A model generated the notes under the pieces. That model was not told the DNA's origin. It saw nothing but the letters and a program-made list of their open reading frames with translations, and did no database searches. Below, one piece after another: positions 777 to 38,159 of a stretch of DNA of 39,870 bases (position 1 is the stretch's first letter; each line of letters opens with the position of its first letter). The DNA comes from an uncultured Clostridia bacterium (GTDB taxonomy: Bacteria; Bacillota; Clostridia; UMGS1883). A program made the position numbers and the translations under genes. Location: positions 1-39,870 of the forward strand of contig CANRJP010000014.1 of the NCBI GenBank assembly GCA_947630975.1. The letters run 5' to 3'.

Positions 777-846
777 GGGGCGGTGACGCCGCCTTACATT
801 ATATTCCTCATTCCTCATTCCTAATTTCTAATTCCTCATCTTCCCC
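777..846. repeat. Fragment of the heptad/GGGGCAG repeat family
   Basis: CGGGGCGG-type end sequence is followed by heptads of the ATTCCTC/ATTCCTA type. The fragment lies between module 1 and the minus-strand gene ending at 808, and it supplies that gene's last codons and stop. Confidence 0.6.
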
Positions 847-2535
847 ATATCCGAAGTCCATCCTGATATAGGGCTGTGCCCGGTCGGCATAGTCGGTGAT
901 GAGCTTTTTCCGTTCCATATTGTCCACCGCCTCGGCCAGCTCCAATATCCGCTGATAGCAGCGGTTGGCGGCGACGCTGCCCTTCTGAGTAGTCTCGATA
1001 AGAGAGTAGAGATGTCCGGCGGCCCTGACCTTGGCGTCCTCCCACAGGGGGGACAGCTCCATGGCTTTGGCGTCCGTATCCACAGCCGAGGCTAATTTGC
1101 CCCCAAGGGCCTCGATCTCGGCGTACTCCGCCAGATAGGGGCCTGTCTCGCAGCCCCGGTCTATGGCCTCCTGTATGTAATACTCGGCATAGGCCAGATC
1201 GTTCCTCGAGCCTGACTCGCCGTAGCTCTCATGATAGGCCAGCGCCGCCCGGTAGCAGCAATCTCCGTCGAAGGGATCGAGCCTCGCCGCAAGGGCCAAG
1301 GCTCCGCCGCTGCCGGTCTCTATTCCCCGGGCCTTTATTCCGGCGGAAACTCCAAGCACACAGCCAAAGACCGCCAACGCCCCCAAAATTCCCGCAACCA
1401 CAAACCTGACGGGTCTGATCCGCACCGAAAGGGTGCGCCCCTGTCTCCACTCGCCATATGCCAGCACTCCGGCCAGCATCATCAGTGCGCCCAGACTGTG
1501 CTCCGCCCCGGTAAGGAACGCGAACACCGCGATAGCCCCGCCGAAGCCGCAGAACAGGCTCTTTTTTTTCACGGCCATGTGAACCGTCCACGCGACGGCC
1601 GCCAGAAAGGCCAGCCCTCCCGGCAGTCCGAGGGAGGAGACGAGCTCCGCGCCCAGTCCCGCCGAGGCCGCGTCATAGTAGACCGACTGGAACTCTCCCT
1701 GACGCAGCAGAAATCCGCCGCCGCCCAGACCGCCGATGTTCTTCAGCCCGCAGAGTACGCCGTCGGCAAAGGGTCTCAGTCCGCCGCCGGAGCCGCGTAC
1801 GGCCATGATGATCATGGCCGCGGCGGAAAGCGCCGAAACTGCGGCGCCCGAAACACAGGCCGCAAGGTTCCGCCGGCCCAAGGACACGAACACCAGAAAA
1901 ATTCCGCCGGCCAGCGCGGTCAGCAGGCTGCGGCTCATGACCAGCACGAAAAGCAGGGGCAGACCCGCTACAAAGGCCGAGGGCTTCAGCTTGCCGTTTT
2001 TGCCGCGCAGAACGGCCTGACAGCACCACAGACCCGCGAGCATGAACATTCCCACCAGATGCCGGTCGCCCAGACCGGCGGCGAAAGCCCCGTCAAGGGA
2101 GAACCGGCGTATTATGATCCAGTCCAGAATGTTCCACGCCCCGCAGATAAGGGCGGATATCAGCACCAGCCCGGTCAGGCGGGAGCCGATGTCCTTTTCC
2201 TGAGCAAAATAGTCCGCCGCCAGCATGGCCGTCAGCAGAACCGTGAGCAGGACGAAGCACAGCCGAAGGTGCCCCGCCCGGTCGTCGGCCCATATCAGCA
2301 CAAAAAGGGCGTACGCCAGCATGACCCCGCCCACGGCAATATTGACGGAAAGATGTATTCTGCCGGTCTCAAACAGCCGCGCGGCGAACACAGCCGCCGT
2401 CACGGCGAACACGGCGTACAGTCCCCAGCTCCCGACGGCGGCCCCCAGCACGGTGGGCCCCAGCAGGATAAAGGCCGCCGCCAGCAGCTCCAGCAGCAGC
2501 TTGCCGGAAAATGGCCTTCTACTGTTCTTCCTCAC
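808..2535 (-). CDS. O-antigen ligase/polymerase-like polytopic membrane protein with C-terminal helical repeat region
   Basis: A long N-terminal part (residues ~12-390) holds about ten hydrophobic segments in the style of the Wzy/O-antigen ligase (Wzx/Wzy pathway) superfamily, including a long region between segments with GLGDRHLVG. The last ~160 residues are soluble and TPR-like (LAYAEYYIQEAIDRG, ELSPLWEDAK). Such proteins join or polymerise lipid-linked glycans at the outer face of the membrane. I chose the GTG at 2535 because AGGAGG lies 12 bases upstream; a TTG at 2559 has no ribosome site. The gene overlaps the end of the upstream CNNM gene by 17 bp, so the two are probably co-translated. 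Oddly, the last residues (EIRNEE) and the stop codon come from a dispersed heptad repeat. The substrate is unknown. Confidence 0.6.
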   Translation of the reverse strand: MRKNSRRPFSGKLLLELLAAAFILLGPTVLGAAVGSWGLYAVFAVTAAVFAARLFETGRIHLSVNIAVGGVMLAYALFVLIWADDRAGHLRLCFVLLTVLLTAMLAADYFAQEKDIGSRLTGLVLISALICGAWNILDWIIIRRFSLDGAFAAGLGDRHLVGMFMLAGLWCCQAVLRGKNGKLKPSAFVAGLPLLFVLVMSRSLLTALAGGIFLVFVSLGRRNLAACVSGAAVSALSAAAMIIMAVRGSGGGLRPFADGVLCGLKNIGGLGGGGFLLRQGEFQSVYYDAASAGLGAELVSSLGLPGGLAFLAAVAWTVHMAVKKKSLFCGFGGAIAVFAFLTGAEHSLGALMMLAGVLAYGEWRQGRTLSVRIRPVRFVVAGILGALAVFGCVLGVSAGIKARGIETGSGGALALAARLDPFDGDCCYRAALAYHESYGESGSRNDLAYAEYYIQEAIDRGCETGPYLAEYAEIEALGGKLASAVDTDAKAMELSPLWEDAKVRAAGHLYSLIETTQKGSVAANRCYQRILELAEAVDNMERKKLITDYADRAQPYIRMDFGYGEDEELEIRNEE

Positions 2536-3811
2536 CGTTTTCAGCTTCCTCCTCGACAACGCAGACCAGAACCCTCTCTATTCTGCGGTCCTCAATTTTC
2601 ACTATTTTCATGGCCAGTCCGTAGGCCTCTATCTCAAAGGTGGAGCCGTCCTCGGGTATGGTGTCCATCTGAGCGAAGATAAGGCCGCCGATGGTGTCGT
2701 ACTCCTCCACGGGCAGCTTGACGCCAAGCTCCTCCGCCACCTCGTCCAGAGGGGCGGTGCCGTCTATCTCCCAGGTGTTCTCATCCAGCCGGACTATCGG
2801 CTCGGGCTCTACCTGTTCTTCCTTTTCGTCGTTTATCCGGCCCACAAGCTCCTCCAAAAGGTCGTCCATGGTGACGACGCCGCTGAAGCCGCCGTACTCG
2901 TCCACCACCACGGCCATGTGGTTCTTTTCCTGCTGCATATTGCGGAAAAGCACGTCCGTGGACACGGTCTCGGGCACGATATAGGCCTTATGGATTATGC
3001 TTTTGACGTCGCCGCTGCCGTCATAGAGGAACTCGTAAAGCTCCCGGGCGTAGACGATGCCCTCGATATTGTCGATGGTCTTTCCGCATACGGGAAAGCG
3101 CGAAAAGCCCGTGTCCCGCACCTGCTTTTCCCACTCACGGGGGTCGTCCCCAAGGCGGAGGACGGCCACGTCGATACGGTGGGTCATGACGTCGGCGGCG
3201 GACATACTGTCGAACTCAAATATATTCTGAATGAACTCCTGCTCCTCGGGAGCTATGACGCCGGTCTCGGTGCCGATGTCCACCATCATGCGGATCTCCT
3301 CCTCGGTCACGTCCTCCAGCTCCTCGTCGGGAGCCACGCCGAAGAGACCGGCGCAGAGCCTCGCCAGCCACAGGCAGGCCGCCACCGGCGGCAGACTTAC
3401 GAAGTAAAAGCCCTCCATTACCCAGGTCATTTTGCGGGACACGGCGGCAAAATACTTGCGCCCCACCCGCGCTGGGGCCAGACGGCCGACTATGACCGAG
3501 ACCATTGCGACGGCCACCGCCAGCAGGCAGGCCAATACCGGGCCGCTGTAATCTATGACCGCGCCGATGTAAACCGTTGTCAGCATACCCACGCAGATAT
3601 AGAGGAGAGTGGTCCAAAAGCGGTAGCCCACCGCGAAACGGGCCTCGTTTTCCTTCAGCTTGAGAAGGCGGCGGCTGGCCGGGTCGCCGTCCTCGGCGTC
3701 CTTCCGGAGAGCGGTTATGTTCAGCTCCTCAAGAGCCACGTTCAGGACGGTAAAAAGTCCGCATATGACAAGCAGCCCAAGCTGCGTAATACTCGCGGGG
3801 AGAGGTTCCAA
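2519..3811 (-). CDS. CNNM/CorC-family membrane protein with CBS pair (hemolysin-C type)
   Basis: The product is 430 residues and has the usual order for the family. A DUF21/CNNM transmembrane domain with four hydrophobic stretches spans residues ~10-165. A CBS pair follows (~190-315; motifs DVMTHRIDV, GFSRFPVCG, VVVDEYGGFSGVVTMDDLLEELVG), then a CorC/HlyC C-terminal domain (~330-410; GTAPLDEVAEELG, YDTIGGLI). Family members take part in magnesium/cobalt homeostasis. The start is TTG at 3811 with GAAAGG about 10 bases upstream; a TGA lies just upstream in frame. It sits 22 bp downstream of the hemolysin III gene and overlaps the following gene, so all three probably form one transcription unit. 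Confidence 0.9.
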   Translation of the reverse strand: MEPLPASITQLGLLVICGLFTVLNVALEELNITALRKDAEDGDPASRRLLKLKENEARFAVGYRFWTTLLYICVGMLTTVYIGAVIDYSGPVLACLLAVAVAMVSVIVGRLAPARVGRKYFAAVSRKMTWVMEGFYFVSLPPVAACLWLARLCAGLFGVAPDEELEDVTEEEIRMMVDIGTETGVIAPEEQEFIQNIFEFDSMSAADVMTHRIDVAVLRLGDDPREWEKQVRDTGFSRFPVCGKTIDNIEGIVYARELYEFLYDGSGDVKSIIHKAYIVPETVSTDVLFRNMQQEKNHMAVVVDEYGGFSGVVTMDDLLEELVGRINDEKEEQVEPEPIVRLDENTWEIDGTAPLDEVAEELGVKLPVEEYDTIGGLIFAQMDTIPEDGSTFEIEAYGLAMKIVKIEDRRIERVLVCVVEEEAENGEEEQ

Positions 3812-5594: not shown

Positions 5595-6032
5595 TTACTT
5601 ACAGTCGTCGCAGTCGCACTCGTCGTCGGTGAACTCGATCTCTATCTCTTCCTTACAGTTAGGGCAGGTGATGGTGCTTTCACCGCTCTCCAAAAGCGAC
5701 GCGTCAAGGTAGATGGTGTCGCCGCAGTGGGGACACTCGACGGCCAGCTCGTCATCGTCGTCGAAATCCCAGTCGTCATCGTCGTCATCACAATCGTCGC
5801 AGTCACACTCGCCGTACATTTCTTCCTCGACGTCCCCAAGTGCCTCGTCTATCTCGTCCACCAGATCCTGAAGCTCGTCTACGGTGTCGGTCAAAGACTC
5901 TATCTCGTCGGACATATCGCTCACAAGCTCGATTACCGCCTTGAGGATCTTGCCTTCTTTTGTGGTGAGGTCAAGCTCCGCGCCCTCCATAAGGCCCTTG
6001 AGGTATGACGCTCTTTCTGTTAAATAGCTCAT
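5595..6032 (-). CDS. CD1247-type protein with acidic linker and C-terminal zinc ribbon
   Basis: 145 residues. The N-terminal half is helical and probably coiled (SYLTERASYLKGLMEG, then a heptad-like ELVSDMSDEIESLTDTVDE), matching what I know as the CD1247 N-terminal domain in Clostridia. The middle is a nearly pure Asp/Cys stretch (CDCDDCDDDDDD). The C-terminal half is a zinc ribbon, CPHCG...CPNC, closed by CDCDDCK. The function is unknown. It lies 39 bp downstream of efp with its own AAGGAGG site at 6039-6045 and is probably in the same transcript. Confidence 0.8.
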   Translation of the reverse strand: MSYLTERASYLKGLMEGAELDLTTKEGKILKAVIELVSDMSDEIESLTDTVDELQDLVDEIDEALGDVEEEMYGECDCDDCDDDDDDWDFDDDDELAVECPHCGDTIYLDASLLESGESTITCPNCKEEIEIEFTDDECDCDDCK

Positions 6033-6071: not shown

Positions 6072-6629
6072 TTACGCTCTGGACATATACTCGCCGGTGC
6101 GGGTGTCGATGCGTATGGTCTCGCCCTGATTGATGAACAGGGGAACCTGCACCTGAGCGCCCGTTTCAAGAGTGGCGGGCTTTGTCGCGCCCTGAGCGGT
6201 GTTGCCGGCAAAGCCGGGCTCGGTATCGGTAACCGCGAGTTCCACAAAGTTCGGCGGCTCAACGCCGAAGATGTTGCCCTTGAAGGACAGGATCTTGACC
6301 TGCATATTCTCCTTCACAAACTTAAGGGCGTCGCCCAGCTTGTCGCTGCCGATGGGTATCTGCTCGTAGGTCTCGGGATCCATAAAGTAGTAGAGATCCC
6401 CGTCGCTGTAAAGGTATTCCATATCCTTTCGCTCAATATGCGCCTTGGGCATCTTGTCGGTGGGGCTGAATGTGCGCTCGACAACGCCGCCGGAAATAAC
6501 GTTTCTGATTTTTGTCCGCACAAAAGCCGCGCCTTTGCCGGGCTTAACGTGCTGGAACTCTATAACCTGATAAACGCTGCCGTCAAGTTCAAAGGTCACA
6601 CCGTTTCTGAATTCGCCTGCGGAAATCAT
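6072..6629 (-). CDS. efp: Elongation factor P
   Basis: 185 residues, the standard length. All three domains are present: KOW-like N-terminal (1-65), the central OB domain (66-128) and the C-terminal OB domain (129-185, with [13 protein letters not shown] and the closing [21 protein letters not shown]). The modifiable tip lysine is Lys32 in [12 protein letters not shown]. The protein relieves ribosome stalling at polyproline motifs. No gene for a lysine-modifying enzyme is in the window. GAAAGGAAG precedes the ATG, and it lies upstream of the zinc-ribbon gene. Confidence 0.98.
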
Positions 6630-6670: not shown

Positions 6671-6702
6671 ATTATAATACTACAAAAGAGGAAAATAATC
6701 AA
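6671..6702 (-). promoter_or_regulatory. Possible promoter of efp
   Basis: On the minus strand TATAAT (6676-6671) lies downstream of TTGATT (6702-6697). The 20-bp spacing is longer than ideal, so only the -10 box is convincing. Confidence 0.4.
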
Positions 6703-6783: not shown

Positions 6784-7854
6784 TCACATCACCTTGATCT
6801 CGGCGGGGGTCTTTGTCAGACAAACGGCCCCGTCCGGCGTGATAACCGCGGTGTCGGTGATCCTGACGCCGCCGTAGCCTCCCCTGTAAGCGCCCACGCC
6901 GACGCTCACCGTCATATTGGTACACAGCGTGTCCGAGCTTTGAAGGCTGATCTTGGGCAGCTCCCGATCCGAAAGGCCCACCCCGTGGCCCACACAGTGG
7001 AGATACCCGTCGCCGCAGCCCTTTTCCGTCAGGACGGCTCTGGCTCTGGCGTCCACATTGCGGCAGGGATTGCCCGTCCTTGCCTCGGCCAGCACCTCGT
7101 TCCGGGCGCTCAGCACGGCTCCGTACATATTCCGCGCTCCCTCGTCGGCGCTGCCCATGAAATAGGTTCGGCTGCAATCGGTGCAGTAGCCCTTGTATAT
7201 TATACCCATATTTACCACGACTATGTCGCCGAAGGCTATTTCCTTGGGAGCCGGATTGGCGGAGGGCATGGCCGTCCGCACTCCCGAAACTATCACGGGA
7301 GGAAAGGCGAAGCCATCGGCGTCAAGGGATCTGAAGTGCATTTCGGCCTTCAGCGCCAGCTCCTTTTCGGTGACGCCCACTCTGAGCAGCTGCTCCACTC
7401 GGGCCATGCCGTCGTCGGTTATTCTGGCGGCCTCGGTGAGGATCTCTATCTCGGACCGATCCTTGACCGCCCGAAGTCGGAGCATAACGTCCCCGGCGGG
7501 TATGAGCTCCTCATAGCGCAGCCGCTTTTCCAGAGAACGGAACTGATTGACGGTAAAATAGTGATCCTCATAGATTATTCTCTTGACCCCGTCGCTGATG
7601 ATGGAGTCGTTGATGCTGTTATAAAGTCCGCCGGTGGTGCTGACTATGTTGTAATCTCTGGTCTCCATGGCGGCCTGAAGGGCGTAGCGCGGCTCCACAA
7701 AGAGGGTGCGGCCCTTTTCGGTGATGAGGATAGCGCCGGTGTCGCCGGTGAAGCCGCTCAAAAAGATGCGGTTCTCCCGGGACGCGATGAGCACGGCGTC
7801 CGCTCCCCGGGCGCTCATTGCGGCCAAAAGCCGCTCCACTCTTTCCTCATACAT
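6784..7854 (-). CDS. M24-family aminopeptidase P-like protein, metal site degenerate
   Basis: 356 residues with the full Xaa-Pro aminopeptidase layout: a creatinase N-terminal domain (~1-125) and a pita-bread M24 domain (~130-350). Of the five metal ligands of PepP/YqhT-type enzymes, only Asp226 (TDCSRT) and His290 (GHGVGL) remain. The first Asp is Asn215 (VVVNMG instead of VDFG). The Glu of TVEPG is Gly319 (SVGVGAY), and the Glu of GVRIED is Thr333 (GVRITD). The second catalytic His is Arg. It is therefore probably not a normal dinuclear aminopeptidase. I start it at ATG 7854 (GGAGGG upstream); the ATG overlaps the end of aroQ. The aroQ-M24-efp order is common in Firmicutes, with an active peptidase. 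Confidence 0.85.
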   Translation of the reverse strand: MYEERVERLLAAMSARGADAVLIASRENRIFLSGFTGDTGAILITEKGRTLFVEPRYALQAAMETRDYNIVSTTGGLYNSINDSIISDGVKRIIYEDHYFTVNQFRSLEKRLRYEELIPAGDVMLRLRAVKDRSEIEILTEAARITDDGMARVEQLLRVGVTEKELALKAEMHFRSLDADGFAFPPVIVSGVRTAMPSANPAPKEIAFGDIVVVNMGIIYKGYCTDCSRTYFMGSADEGARNMYGAVLSARNEVLAEARTGNPCRNVDARARAVLTEKGCGDGYLHCVGHGVGLSDRELPKISLQSSDTLCTNMTVSVGVGAYRGGYGGVRITDTAVITPDGAVCLTKTPAEIKVM

Positions 7855-8299
7855 GGCTTCTTCCCTCCAGATAGTCAACTAATCTTTCCACGCCCACGGC
7901 GTAGCTCTCCTTGCCCAGGCCCGCCACCTGGCCGATGCAGTAGGGCAGGATCACGCTCTTGCGGCGGAAGCTCTCCCTGCTGTGAATGTCGGACATATGT
8001 ATCTCTATTGTGGGTATGGCCACGGCGCTGACGGCGTCGGCCACGGCGTAGCTGTAATGGGTAAAGGCGGCGGGGTTCATGACGATGCCGTCAACCTTGC
8101 CGTAGGCCTCGTGTATTTTCTCCACCACGGCCCCCTCGTAATTCGACTGGAAGCATTCGCACTCGTAGCCCAGCTCCCGTGCCCGTTCCACGGTCAAATT
8201 CTCTATGGTCCCGAGGGTGTCGCTGCCGTAAATTTCCGGCTGGCGTATGCCCAGCATATTCATGTTGGGCCCGTTTATCAAAAGCAGTTTTTTGCGCAT
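7847..8299 (-). CDS. aroQ: Type II 3-dehydroquinate dehydratase
   Basis: About 150 residues, typical of the dodecameric type II enzyme that converts 3-dehydroquinate to 3-dehydroshikimate in aromatic amino acid synthesis. Conserved elements are LLINGPNMNMLGIRQPEIYG (catalytic Arg and Tyr in the lid), CFQSNYEG, NPAAFTHYS, and EIHMSDIHSRE with the catalytic His. An ATG at 8308 touches the ribosome site, so the second ATG (8299), nine bases past AAAAGGA, is the better start. The stop codon overlaps the start of the M24 gene. Confidence 0.96.
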   Translation of the reverse strand: MRKKLLLINGPNMNMLGIRQPEIYGSDTLGTIENLTVERARELGYECECFQSNYEGAVVEKIHEAYGKVDGIVMNPAAFTHYSYAVADAVSAVAIPTIEIHMSDIHSRESFRRKSVILPYCIGQVAGLGKESYAVGVERLVDYLEGRSHV

Positions 8300-8431
8300 T
8301 GGTCTCATTCCTTTTCCGACTGTTTATATTTCTTTATATCATATTTTACACTGTATTGTATACAATTCTAAAACAAATTTGTAAATAATTTATTAATAAT
8401 TTCAATATTTTCGCGGTGATGAATTTTTCTC

Positions 8432-24143: not shown

Positions 24144-27100
24144 TTACAGCTCGGGAATGAAGTCGACAGCGGCGTCGGCACCGTCGGCGTCAACGTCGGC
24201 CATCTCGGTGGCTACGAACTCGATCTCTACGCTGTCAAGGCTGAGGGTAACAGCGCCGTCAGCGTTCTCAAGAGTAACGGTGTCGCCATCTATGGTGATC
24301 TTGGAGTAAAGCTCCGCCTTATCCTCAGTGGCAACAACCTTACTGGAGGGGCCGGCCTTAACAATGCCCTTGAAGCCTATACCCTTCTCAAAGAGCTCGG
24401 GAGCAACGGTGATGGTAGTAACGCTATCGGCTACTTCGACGGTGATAACCTCGTCACGGCCATCGCCGAACTTATTCTCGGCGTTGTAAACCGCACCCAT
24501 GTCGGACAGAGCCTTAACGGCCTGATCGATATGAGCAAGAGTCTCATCGGTCTTATATGCGGCCGCGTTGGCGGTAAGGTCGGCTACAACGGCATTGGAC
24601 ATGGCCTTGGCGGTCGCCCAGTCAAGGATATAGCCGGTATCGGTGTCTACTATGTAAGCGGTGTAGTCAACGTTGAAGCTGTTGGGCACAACGGCAACCT
24701 TGGTCTGACCGTCCTCAAGCACAACCGGATCAAGAACGGTATCTTCTATACCGTCACTACCGGTACGGGGCTTATGAGCATCCTCGGCGACTACCTTGAG
24801 GGTCTGGCCGGCATATTCGCCGCCAAGCTCAAATACATGAGCGAGAACCTCGGTCTCGCCTTCGGCGAGGTAAGTGATGCCGGCGGCCTTAACGGTGGCG
24901 GCGGCGGGAACCTCTTCCGCGGTAATCTTGTCGGTGTTGATCTGGATGTTGGTGGCAGTAAACCGTCCGTCTGCATTGGCGTCGCCGGCGCAGGAATTGC
25001 TTACAAATGCTATACCGTCAATGGGGCCACTGGCACGGAACGCCTTGTCGGCGGCCTTGGCAAGCTGCTTGCCGGTCTCGTCAAGTATTGTAAGGCTGTA
25101 CTTATTATCAGTAACGTTTATCTCAAAGAGCAGTATATAGGGCTTTCCTGTTTCGATGGAAAGGATAGAATTCTCCGTAGCACTGCCGTTTCTGGGGCAG
25201 AAACCGGTGCCATTGCAAACAATCTGCACGCCGGCATAAGTAAACACATTTCCGCTCTTAACTGTACCGTTGGGTTCGCCGGTTTCTTCATCTGTACCGG
25301 GCTCAATCGCGTCATGGTCAAGGAACAAAATCTGTTCATCGACATTCGCACTAAACTGAACGGTCATCTCGGCATTGACGGTGCCCTCGGTAATCTCCTT
25401 GGGGAAGAGCACGGTGGCGTCCTTGGTTCTTATCTGGTTATTCTGAACGCGGGCGGAAACAACGTCAGCCATGTCAAAGGTCTTTGCACGAAGACCGTCG
25501 GCGGCCTTAACGGTAATGCCTATCTCTTTCTCATCAGCGTCAACGAGAGTACCGGTAGCACCGTCTTCGGCCCACTTAACCGTGAAGCTTTCGGGAGCAA
25601 GACCCTCGACCGGTTTGTCAAGAGTTGCGGTAACTGTTTCGGGAACAACGGGAGTATAGTCGCCTACGGCGGTGACAAAATCGGCGCCGGTAATTGTGGC
25701 TACTAAATCGGCCTTTACATAGTACTTATCCGTTCCGGCAACAAGGGTAACATCAGCGGCGGGGTTGGTGTAGTAATTCAAATCTACACGCTTATTTTTA
25801 GCGAGTGCGCCGGCTTCAACCTTAACCACTTCGTCCGCCTTGCCTTCGCCCTTAATTTCACCGAGTACGGTACCGTTGGCGGTGCCGTCGGTGGTGGCGA
25901 TAATGCTGTAGCTTACATCGCCGGAAAGGTCTTCCAACTCATATACGGCGAAGTTATCCCAGATGGGAGCGCCGTCATTGAAGTAAGAACCGGCAAAACC
26001 GATAACAGTCTGATCAGCCTCGGTCTCGACAACAAAAGTCTTGTCGATGAACTGATCGAGCACGAGATTGATGTGACCGCCGCCGCTGCCTGCGCCGTAA
26101 TCAGCCACATTGGTTCCGCTCTTGATTATATCTGCCGCATCGGCCTTATTGGCATAAATCCAAGCATACTGATTGTAGCGGTCTGCGCTTCCTTCACTGT
26201 TCTGACCGTTGGACTTTGTAGCCATAGCGTCAAAGGTAACGACATACTTCTTGCCACCTGTAACAGTCCAAGCGGTATGAATCGGTACATCACTGCCCAT
26301 ATCCAATGTCTGGAAAGCCTGATTTCCTTCGCTGACCTTTTCAGTATCGGTAATGAGGGCGTATCTGTCACCGGCGACGATATCCTTACCGTCTTTGTCA
26401 AGCACGCCGGTAAGGCCGTCCTCAAAGCCGGGGTTGTTATCTTTAATAAGATTGTCGCCCACGATGTTCTTGTACACAGTCACGGGAATCTCAGCCGTAT
26501 TTTCGCCGGATTTAAGAGTGATAGTCTGAGGCTCGCCCACCTTGTACACGTGCTCCGCATCAGCCGTATATATATCGCGTACCAAGGGAGTGAATTCGGC
26601 GTTGGGATAGAGACCAGTCTGAGTGTAAACTGACTCGTCCACAACATCATTGCCGCAAACATACTTTACGGTAACGCTGGCATCGGGCTGAATTTCCTCA
26701 ACCTCGTAAATCTCGATGTCATCAAAGAGATAGTTTTCGGAATAGCGCGGGAACACTTCCAGACAAACGGTCTGCTGGGGGACAGTCTTAACAACAGCTA
26801 CGGCTCTGTTCCACTCACCTGACGTTAAAGCCTGGTCGGAACCCTGAGTGTTGTTATTACCCCATTTTCCGGTAAGATTGCAATCATTGTTTACATCCTT
26901 GCCGTCTTTATTATCCGAAGCGCCCATGGTAAGCGTTATTTTATTCTTAGTCGGCTTAATCCACATGCTTATGGCATAAACCTTTTCCTCTTCCACGGGC
27001 TCCCCGCCGTTCAGCATATACTGATAGACGAAGCCGGCTGTGGGATCGCCGGTGCCCTTATCATTGGTTACTTTCATAGAATGGGTACCGGTTTTAGCAC

Positions 27101-27350
27101 CTTCCTCAACAACGGAAATAGAGGGATCCAACTCAATCAGTGCAGAACCATCCCAGCTGTGGTAATTTGCGATGTTGCCATCTTCAAATGTACCGTCGGT
27201 AACGACATTATCTGACAGCAGTTTGTACCCTTTGCCATCGACAAAAATTACATCGTCCTTTGTTTCCGCAAAGGCAGCGGGCATAACGGCCATTACCATT
27301 GCCACAACGACGATCAGAGCAAGTATCTTGCTCATCTTAATTGTGTTCAT
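24144..27350 (-). CDS. Large secreted multi-domain protein with carbohydrate-binding-like modules
   Basis: 1068 residues. A signal peptide (SKILALIVVVAMVMAVMPAAFA) ends near residue 28. Two jelly-roll modules of CBM4/9 type follow: ~45-215 (NVVTDGTFEDGNIANYHSW ... YLFDDIEIYEV) and ~320-480 (NLIKDNNPGFEDGLTG ... IWDNFAVYELED). Between and after them lie Ig-like or beta-sandwich segments; ~690-830 resembles a third concanavalin-like module with three cysteines. No catalytic domain, LPXTG motif, SLH domain or dockerin is visible; the C-terminus is acidic (ADVDADGADAAVDF). It is probably released, or held at the surface by an unseen partner, and binds glycans. Regulation may act through the ~150-nt GC-rich leader. 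Confidence 0.75.
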   Translation of the reverse strand: MNTIKMSKILALIVVVAMVMAVMPAAFAETKDDVIFVDGKGYKLLSDNVVTDGTFEDGNIANYHSWDGSALIELDPSISVVEEGAKTGTHSMKVTNDKGTGDPTAGFVYQYMLNGGEPVEEEKVYAISMWIKPTKNKITLTMGASDNKDGKDVNNDCNLTGKWGNNNTQGSDQALTSGEWNRAVAVVKTVPQQTVCLEVFPRYSENYLFDDIEIYEVEEIQPDASVTVKYVCGNDVVDESVYTQTGLYPNAEFTPLVRDIYTADAEHVYKVGEPQTITLKSGENTAEIPVTVYKNIVGDNLIKDNNPGFEDGLTGVLDKDGKDIVAGDRYALITDTEKVSEGNQAFQTLDMGSDVPIHTAWTVTGGKKYVVTFDAMATKSNGQNSEGSADRYNQYAWIYANKADAADIIKSGTNVADYGAGSGGGHINLVLDQFIDKTFVVETEADQTVIGFAGSYFNDGAPIWDNFAVYELEDLSGDVSYSIIATTDGTANGTVLGEIKGEGKADEVVKVEAGALAKNKRVDLNYYTNPAADVTLVAGTDKYYVKADLVATITGADFVTAVGDYTPVVPETVTATLDKPVEGLAPESFTVKWAEDGATGTLVDADEKEIGITVKAADGLRAKTFDMADVVSARVQNNQIRTKDATVLFPKEITEGTVNAEMTVQFSANVDEQILFLDHDAIEPGTDEETGEPNGTVKSGNVFTYAGVQIVCNGTGFCPRNGSATENSILSIETGKPYILLFEINVTDNKYSLTILDETGKQLAKAADKAFRASGPIDGIAFVSNSCAGDANADGRFTATNIQINTDKITAEEVPAAATVKAAGITYLAEGETEVLAHVFELGGEYAGQTLKVVAEDAHKPRTGSDGIEDTVLDPVVLEDGQTKVAVVPNSFNVDYTAYIVDTDTGYILDWATAKAMSNAVVADLTANAAAYKTDETLAHIDQAVKALSDMGAVYNAENKFGDGRDEVITVEVADSVTTITVAPELFEKGIGFKGIVKAGPSSKVVATEDKAELYSKITIDGDTVTLENADGAVTLSLDSVEIEFVATEMADVDADGADAAVDFIPEL

Positions 27351-36443: not shown

Positions 36444-38159
36444 ATGGCTATTGAAACTGGAACCAACTTTCATGTAAAAACCAATTTGCCGCTGGACAGC
36501 CGTTCGGTGGCGAAAACCGCCGCCGAACGGGACGCTATCCCCGAGGGCGAACGTTACGAGGGCATGAGGGTCTATGTGGAGGACGAGCATAAGTTCTACA
36601 CCGCCAAATACTACACCACAGACAACGGTAACAGTTGGATATGGACGGACTCGCCGCAGATGACTTACGCGGGAAGGGTCAATCCCAACGCGCTCATGCT
36701 GATGATGAGCGTCGAAAAAAACGGCAAAGCCGGAATGACCGTCGTGGCCAACAGGGACGAGATGTTACAAAACCCCATTACATCCGCGGATATTATGCCC
36801 ATTAAATGCAACGACATCCTTATTTTGAAAAAGGACGTCATAGGGGACGGCGTTAATACGGTATTCGTCAACAAGGATACTTTCCTGGAATACTTCGACA
36901 TAATACCCTGCCTGTACGACGAGCTGCTCGACAAGATTGCCTCTACCGTGGGTTCTTACACCTGGTATCTCGACACCGACGAGGTGAAGGATCTTGACGA
37001 CAAGTCCTACGGCACCATGGCGAGCTGTCAGACCGACGCCTTCGTGGGCAAGTGGTTCTATCTTTGCACCACAAATTCCCGGTCGGGCAGCGGCCCATAT
37101 CCGTCGAAGTACACCGTCGCCGGGGCAAACGGCAAGGTCAGCTACGGCGACTACGTTATGTGGACGGGCAGCAGACTTGTGCATATCAGCATTAACGAGG
37201 CCAAGTCCAGCGACGTAAAGAACGGCGACGGACACTACAGCTCCACCGGCGGCGTGGACGGCCTGATGAGCTCCACGGACAAGGCGTACCTCACCGACCT
37301 GATAAACTCCTTCTGGGGCAAGACGCACATCCCCGTCCGCCACTGCAAGGACAGCACGGACGCCAACATGAAAAACGGCTGGCTGGTGAACTGGTGCCGG
37401 GAGGACGGCTGGTACATCGGCGGTTTGGGCGCGGACTGCGTGAACCATCCGCCCTACACCGGCGGCAACAAGGTGAACTGGCTGCTGCTGGTGGTCAACG
37501 GCATGAAGGGCGCGGAAAACGAGGACTGGTACAATCTGAGGGTGCAGATAGCCTTCGACATAAAGAACAGCCTCATCTATATGCGCCGGGGCTGGATAAG
37601 CGGCAACACTTGGACCACGGACGGCACAGACGGCTGGACCAAGGTCGGCGCCGTACCCAACGCCACACAAAGCGGCGCCGGACTGATGAGTGCGGAGGAC
37701 AAGAAAAAGCTGGACGGGCTGGGTGCGCCCAGCATATGTCTTGGGACGTCAAAAATAACCGTTGACAAAACTTCCGACACAACGGTTACCTTCCACTGTC
37801 CGGGCTATTGCTTCATCGACGGCGGAGAAAGCACCAACTACTCCGTTACAGGAACTGTCAACAAGCTCAGCGACAGCGGGGCCGACCTGACGCTGGACAC
37901 CGACCTTGAAACAGTCACTCTGACGCTGCACGACACATTTTCATATCCGTTGTTCCTGATCTACTTCGGATTCGTGCCCGACTATCTACCAAACGGCAGA
38001 GTCGCTCTCGGATTTTATGCGGACGTAAGGCCGTATCCCGAAGGCCTCACGGGGGCCGTGCCGTTAGGCAGGGTTCAGGCAAGCGGCCTCAAAACATTTG
38101 AGAAAGCTCCGGAACCCTTCGACCAACGAGTGTCTGTGGGTTCCGGCTGGGAGCAGTAA
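36444..38159 (+). CDS. Phage tail-fibre / receptor-binding-type protein
   Basis: 571 residues. The start (MAIETGTNFHVKTNLPLDSRS, then AERDAIPEGERYEGMRVYVED) is a typical phage fibre opening that describes a tail head-binding segment. Twice it has the G-[AV]-D-G-L-M-S-x-x-D-K spacer (VDGLMSSTDKAYL ~275; AGLMSAEDKKKLDGLG ~415), a known fibre motif. The middle (~300-400) is a Trp/Asn-rich binding module (GWISGNTWTTDGTDGW). The tip is probably the receptor-binding part. GGAGG precedes the ATG. Confidence 0.75.
   Translation: MAIETGTNFHVKTNLPLDSRSVAKTAAERDAIPEGERYEGMRVYVEDEHKFYTAKYYTTDNGNSWIWTDSPQMTYAGRVNPNALMLMMSVEKNGKAGMTVVANRDEMLQNPITSADIMPIKCNDILILKKDVIGDGVNTVFVNKDTFLEYFDIIPCLYDELLDKIASTVGSYTWYLDTDEVKDLDDKSYGTMASCQTDAFVGKWFYLCTTNSRSGSGPYPSKYTVAGANGKVSYGDYVMWTGSRLVHISINEAKSSDVKNGDGHYSSTGGVDGLMSSTDKAYLTDLINSFWGKTHIPVRHCKDSTDANMKNGWLVNWCREDGWYIGGLGADCVNHPPYTGGNKVNWLLLVVNGMKGAENEDWYNLRVQIAFDIKNSLIYMRRGWISGNTWTTDGTDGWTKVGAVPNATQSGAGLMSAEDKKKLDGLGAPSICLGTSKITVDKTSDTTVTFHCPGYCFIDGGESTNYSVTGTVNKLSDSGADLTLDTDLETVTLTLHDTFSYPLFLIYFGFVPDYLPNGRVALGFYADVRPYPEGLTGAVPLGRVQASGLKTFEKAPEPFDQRVSVGSGWEQ

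Follow-up and report, generated by a model that had tools for sequence, protein, structure and literature searches.

The window analysed here, a stretch of 39,870 nucleotides from an uncultured Clostridia bacterium, carries four genes on one strand in the order aroQ - M24 - efp - CD1247, the second of which encodes a member of the M24 peptidase family (Table 1). Its coordinates, strand and residue numbering proved to be as first read: the ATG start codon occupies 7852-7854 and is preceded by GGAGGG, which resembles a ribosome-binding site. The end of aroQ overlaps this start by 8 nt, and the start context is similar in all eight species of the genus. The four-gene order is present in the window and at seven of the eight genus loci, so the M24 gene does stand in its usual place before efp, as had been claimed; the eighth contig ends in between. 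The aroQ-M24-efp order is old. Of 128 M24-bearing loci scanned, aroQ and efp both adjoin the M24 gene at 68, those of Pelotomaculum, Brevibacillus and many Clostridia among them, and the window order corresponds to yqhS-yqhT-efp of Bacillus subtilis. YqhT is also named PapA (PMC4993169).

Two minor features accompany the downstream genes. Between the M24 gene and efp lies a promoter-like TTGATT-17-TATTAT (6674-6702, minus strand), a weak match to the consensus only, from which efp might be transcribed separately. The CD1247-type protein has an Asp run between its helical and zinc-ribbon parts; its gene adjoins efp throughout the order, even where M24 and aroQ are gone.

The M24 gene is of the short PapA/YqhT (PepQ-like) type. 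Creatinase_N (PF01321; residues 5-130, E 6.4e-22, 78.9 bits against a cut-off of 22) is followed by Peptidase_M24 (PF00557; residues 138-340, E 7.5e-51, 173.3 bits against a cut-off of 23), the architecture of M24 subfamily B, which spans the whole protein, and the best NCBIfam match is PepQ-type (193.5 bits, versus 53.3 for MetAP). AlphaFold (58 sequences) predicts the full-length pita-bread fold of prolidases with a pLDDT of 95.1, and the solved structure nearest to the model is the B. anthracis Xaa-Pro dipeptidase 3q6d (TM 0.97, Z 46.1); non-peptidase enzymes of the fold are matched as well (creatinase Z 39, DoeA Z 40).

Table 1. Features of the M24 locus; the residue rows compare the eight genus species with the other orthologues.
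Feature	Position	Strand	Evidence or observation
aroQ, type II 3-dehydroquinate dehydratase	7847..8308	-	TIGR01088 over cut-off
Predicted M24-family pseudopeptidase (YqhT/PapA orthologue), 356 aa, ATG start	6784..7854	-	Pfam, AlphaFold, structure match
N-terminal (Creatinase_N) domain, residues 1-122, now most constrained	7489..7854	-	Invariant-residue counts
Helix 77-88 (LYNSINDSIISD), candidate binding surface	7591..7626	-	Densest cluster of newly fixed residues
Ser198 codon, catalytic His198 lost	7261..7263	-	Genus: S 7, A 1; H in essentially all others
Asn215 codon, ligand Asp1 lost	7210..7212	-	Genus: N 5, S 1, G 2 species; D in all 182 other orthologues
Asp226 codon, ligand Asp2 kept	7177..7179	-	D in 6/8 genus species, E in 2
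His290 codon, ligand His kept	6985..6987	-	Invariant across genus
Arg297 codon, second conserved His lost	6964..6966	-	Genus: R 6, V 2 species; H elsewhere where covered, except L032
Gly319 codon, ligand Glu1 lost	6898..6900	-	G in 8/8 genus species; E elsewhere where covered, except L032
Thr333 codon, ligand Glu2 lost	6856..6858	-	T in 8/8 genus species; E elsewhere where covered, except L032
efp, elongation factor P	6072..6629	-	TIGR00038, 261 bits
CD1247_Nterm zinc-ribbon protein, last conserved cluster member	5595..6032	-	NF045650, 72.4 bits; order conserved across Clostridia

Loss of catalytic residues and its spread

In the prolidase Phdpd of P. horikoshii, the metal ligands are Asp215, Asp226, His290, Glu319 and Glu333, and the catalytic His is His198 (PMC2814137). 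The residue numbers of the window protein coincide with those of Phdpd, and at these positions it has N215, D226, H290, G319, T333 and S198, with R297 at the second conserved His. Of the five metal ligands, only Asp226 and His290 remain; the other three are replaced, as are the two further catalytic His. The original prediction had named the three ligands and the Arg at the secondary His, and the Phdpd numbering and the alignment agree with it; the loss of His198 had been missed. The D, D, H, E, E set of an active Xaa-Pro peptidase (PapA/YqhT, PepQ) is incomplete in all eight genus species, and the catalytic and substrate His at 198 and 297 are absent from the window protein. Losses are concentrated at the catalytic residues: replacement in all eight species affects 5 of these 7 versus 9 of 54 other family-conserved columns (Fisher p = 0.005), and the changes at those nine columns are mostly conservative. 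Around the former metal site, the second-shell pocket residues His286, Glu298, Tyr323, Arg331 and Asp334 are invariant within the genus. In human aminopeptidase P, the equivalents of Arg331 and Tyr323 (assigned by motif position) make up a proton relay, and the Arg has a second role in dimer stability (PMC5774706). Because three ligands and both His are lost jointly, we infer that the window protein is no longer a metal-dependent peptidase. One metal ion might still be held by the retained Asp226 (or Glu) together with His290, and the invariant second shell leaves room for ligand binding in the old pocket.

The loss is a property of the genus. The check proposed at the outset, an alignment of orthologues, was carried out on 191 sequences (8 genus members, one from a sister genus and 182 others, partial and a few near-duplicate sequences included), and it places substitutions at 198, 215, 297, 319 and 333 in each of the eight species, whose pairwise identities range from 60 to 93%. 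Eight independent genomes agree, which excludes an assembly or strain artefact. All 182 other sequences retain every ligand that they cover. A widespread loss among Clostridia was not seen in 103 further class-level orthologues, the best-scoring ones, which are all canonical. The sole exception outside the genus is the sister-genus orthologue L032 (same locus as L089, JAUNBL010000009.1), and it is broken differently: Asp215 is kept, but Lys226, Asn290, Ser297, Ala319, Ala333 and Tyr198 occupy the other positions. Its predicted fold is confident as well (pLDDT 94.9).

The genus clade has a support of 100/100 and L032 is its sister at 99/89, to be read with caution given a long branch. The L032 gene still lies behind aroQ, but efp is elsewhere, which weakens a strict tie of the dead gene to efp. 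Three other genera of the family have no detectable orthologue, yet efp and CD1247 are present and, in most cases, aroQ too. Since aroQ thus mostly outlasts the M24 gene, co-occurrence does not support a functional link between the two. In these other genera, a tblastn search of the DNA following aroQ turned up no decayed M24 remnant, and canonical copies are kept in a third family of the order. The simplest history would be a single inactivation in the family ancestor, after which the dead site drifted and some genera lost the gene; two separate inactivations are the alternative history still to be reckoned with.

Purifying selection and a shift of constraint

The genus M24 gene has a dN/dS of 0.052 under a codon model, against 0.061, 0.045 and 0.060 in three catalytic orthologue clades and 0.076, 0.018 and 0.063 for its neighbours aroQ, efp and CD1247 in the genus; pairwise values agree with these figures. 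All eight proteins are 355-356 aa long and no frame break occurs in the eight genomes. Decay is ruled out by the dN/dS and the constant length, and the combination that defines a pseudopeptidase, catalytic residues lost under purifying selection, is what the locus displays. Together with the genus-wide fixation and the predicted fold, these data support the earlier proposal of selection for a non-peptidase role as opposed to random decay. The accompanying statement that the fold and the remaining motifs are well kept stands in its first half only: the predicted fold is intact, but the remaining motifs are no longer specially conserved within the genus, where 48% of the positions in the catalytic-motif segments are invariant versus 62-85% in catalytic clades.

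Constraint now weighs on the other domain. Across the eight genomes of this one genus (mostly metagenome-assembled), 73 of 122 N-domain residues are invariant (60%) versus 89 of 229 in the C-domain (39%; odds ratio 2.34, p 2e-4), whereas each of five catalytic clades conserves the C-domain better (odds ratios 0.34-0.46). Substitutions counted on trees give the same picture, with an N/C ratio of 0.58 in the dead clade versus 1.22-1.79 in seven catalytic clades, a value as low as 0.58 being reached in at most 1 of 5000 shuffles. Identity to the window protein runs in the same direction for the sister pseudopeptidase (38% in the N-domain versus 28% in the C-domain) and in the opposite direction for catalytic orthologues (27-32% versus 33-37%). 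Mean fourfold-site divergence is about equal across the domains (0.52, 0.54), and constraint therefore acts on the protein; nucleotide-level constraint in the 5' part is not supported on this basis, although in the closest genus pair (93% identity) fourfold differences are lower in the N-domain (14/56 versus 57/122).

Newly fixed residues number 47 in the genus. The N-domain holds 33 of them, and they are densest at 75-91, which includes helix 77-88, and at 106-126. In the helix, L77, Y78, N79, S80, N82, D83, I86 and D88 are invariant in the genus and variable in catalytic orthologues, and 17 of the 47 residues, including Leu77, Tyr78 and Asn82, are also found in the sister pseudopeptidase.

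Proposed function, alternatives and known systems

We propose that the window protein is a pseudopeptidase acting as a dimeric scaffold whose N-terminal domain binds a macromolecular partner, the old cleft being mainly scaffold, a reading from sequence that we consider probable. In an ancestor of this gut Clostridia family, the operon-encoded Xaa-Pro peptidase of PapA/YqhT type would have lost the two catalytic His along with its dinuclear metal centre, and the folded protein would then have been kept for another job. The stable pita-bread dimer, itself predicted, would be retained, in keeping with the kept Arg331 and Tyr323, while the Creatinase_N domain would contact the partner, chiefly through helix 77-88 and residues 106-126, and the former active-site cleft would serve mainly as scaffold. 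We regard this as the best reading because the N-domain is now the most constrained part of the protein. Two example roles had been put forward in the original prediction, binding of proline-containing peptides and binding of a partner; the second is favoured, since the segments that once formed the pocket have lost constraint and the N-terminal domain has gained it. Since the gene belongs to the aroQ-efp operon, the partner may have to do with protein synthesis. A link to EF-P in particular is a guess, because the sister-genus copy sits away from efp.

The small-ligand role deserves attention nonetheless. A metal-free sensor could use the old cleft to bind Xaa-Pro peptides or some other small ligand, with the N-domain signalling and no cleavage taking place. 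The invariant second shell (His286, Glu298, Tyr323, Arg331, Asp334) would suit such a function, as would the neighbouring EF-P, which serves polyproline translation, with YqhT, according to one proposal, removing the peptides that result (PMC4993169). The reduced invariance of the catalytic-motif segments speaks against it, as do the changes of His198 to S/A and of His297 to R/V, the replacement at 297 being itself not conserved, and we judge a sensor unlikely. A narrower version of partner binding, a bacterial counterpart of Ebp1, derived from the prolidase of the aroQ-efp operon, that would act as a translation-associated factor, with its N-domain binding EF-P, the ribosome or nascent proline-rich chains, seems to us unlikely as well, a little below the sensor in plausibility.

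Alternatively, the dead protein might control an active M24 enzyme in its cell by forming a heterodimer with it, an arrangement proposed for the C. elegans pair PID-5 and APP-1 (PMC10377022). A candidate target exists: the search for a second, active PepP suggested with the original prediction turned up a long aminopeptidase P of about 600 aa, predicted to be active, with all ligands present in the genus members. For Xaa-Pro peptides the genome has enzymes other than the window protein; besides the long aminopeptidase P, it encodes a second M24 protein of 416 aa, in which Asp occupies the Glu1 site, as well as a methionine aminopeptidase. These proteins differ from the window protein in architecture and are 25-33% identical to it over the peptidase domain, and for this reason a shared dimer interface is not expected; moreover, the dead protein has replaced the PapA-type enzyme, with no duplication. 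Regulation of this kind is thus improbable. As an observation on the 416 aa protein itself, Asp stands for Glu1 (FCVDVGIY) in all seven genus members examined (L004, L020, L022, L025, L026, L028, L031), and the protein may represent a subfamily apart, with a metal chemistry of its own.

New catalysis in the cleft, metal-free or mononuclear, as in creatinase and DddP, appears improbable to much the same degree, if not slightly more so. Asp/Glu226 and His290 are retained and the fold does include non-peptidase enzymes, among them creatinase and DoeA, but position 215 varies between N, S and G and position 297 between R and V among species, no new conserved polar cluster is seen in the motif segments, and the His and Glu at creatinase-type positions are gone. 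Here we equate the position of the catalytic His of creatinase with 198 and its cleft Glu with 319 and 333, where the window protein has S198, G319 and T333.

The frame could also be a passive remnant, an operon spacer or a means of translational coupling to aroQ, as the 8-nt overlap with its similar start context in eight species and the survival of efp and mostly aroQ in family genera without the M24 gene might suggest; this is very improbable, with a dN/dS of 0.052 over the whole protein, a constant length of 355-356 aa and a confident, complete predicted fold, and since the gene can evidently be lost, the remaining copies are under selection. Equally hard to credit is a surviving Xaa-Pro peptidase whose metal site is weak or unusual: two ligands, the fold and the second shell remain, but the loss takes in Asp1, the two Glu ligands and the two catalytic His at once, and negligible activity is reported for relatives mutated at the His198 position (PMC2814137).

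A binding scaffold derived from an M24 enzyme is not unprecedented, and a binding-platform role comparable in principle to that of Spt16 or Ebp1 is the most likely. Of the nearest known systems, two groups are catalytic: (i), B. subtilis YqhT/PapA and B. anthracis 3q6d (M24B) resemble the window protein in length, domain order, fold (TM 0.97, Z 46) and orthologous gene place (aroQ/yqhS - yqhT - efp), but keep five ligands and both His, of which it has only Asp226 and His290; (ii), creatinase, the ectoine hydrolase DoeA and DddP share the fold and have non-peptidase functions (Z about 39-40 for creatinase and DoeA), with catalytic residues of their own at positions that the window protein has lost. 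Among the dead relatives, Ebp1/PA2G4 is an M24A pseudopeptidase that binds the ribosome and retains two of the five ligands (PMC11266112). It is, however, a eukaryotic protein of the methionine-aminopeptidase lineage that lost other positions and lacks Creatinase_N, a domain that the window protein has. The N-terminal domain of Spt16 (FACT) is likewise a dead Creatinase_N plus pita-bread module (Z about 36), and residues of its N-lobe bind a histone tail (PMC4741192); it is eukaryotic, set within a large chaperone, about 20% identical and of no common recent origin with the window protein. The aminopeptidase P-related domain of C. elegans PID-5, is an inactive M24B homologue for which a retained fold and regulation by binding are predicted, but it is of aminopeptidase P type, fused to an eTudor domain, and has lost other ligands.

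M24 pseudopeptidases are known mainly from eukaryotes, as in Ebp1, Spt16 and PID-5, and in the open-access literature searched we found no description of a bacterial one, or of one at an efp-linked prolidase locus. As far as that literature goes, what is new here is a bacterial M24 pseudopeptidase that has become fixed at such a locus and in which the relocation of constraint can be measured. The measured shift from the active site to the N-terminal domain points to where the new function should be sought. It also bears on a wider question: a prolidase gene precedes efp in much of Bacillota, and in B. subtilis yqhT and efp mutants are both impaired in sporulation (PMC4703394), which links YqhT with EF-P. 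A naturally dead version of YqhT could reveal whether part of the YqhT role is non-catalytic.

Elsewhere in the window, two long open frames at 808-2559 (minus strand, 583 aa) and 36444-38159 (plus strand, 571 aa) are putative genes without a Pfam match, and 24144-27350 (minus strand) encodes a protein of 1068 aa in which an N-terminal CBM_4_9-like domain alone is recognised.
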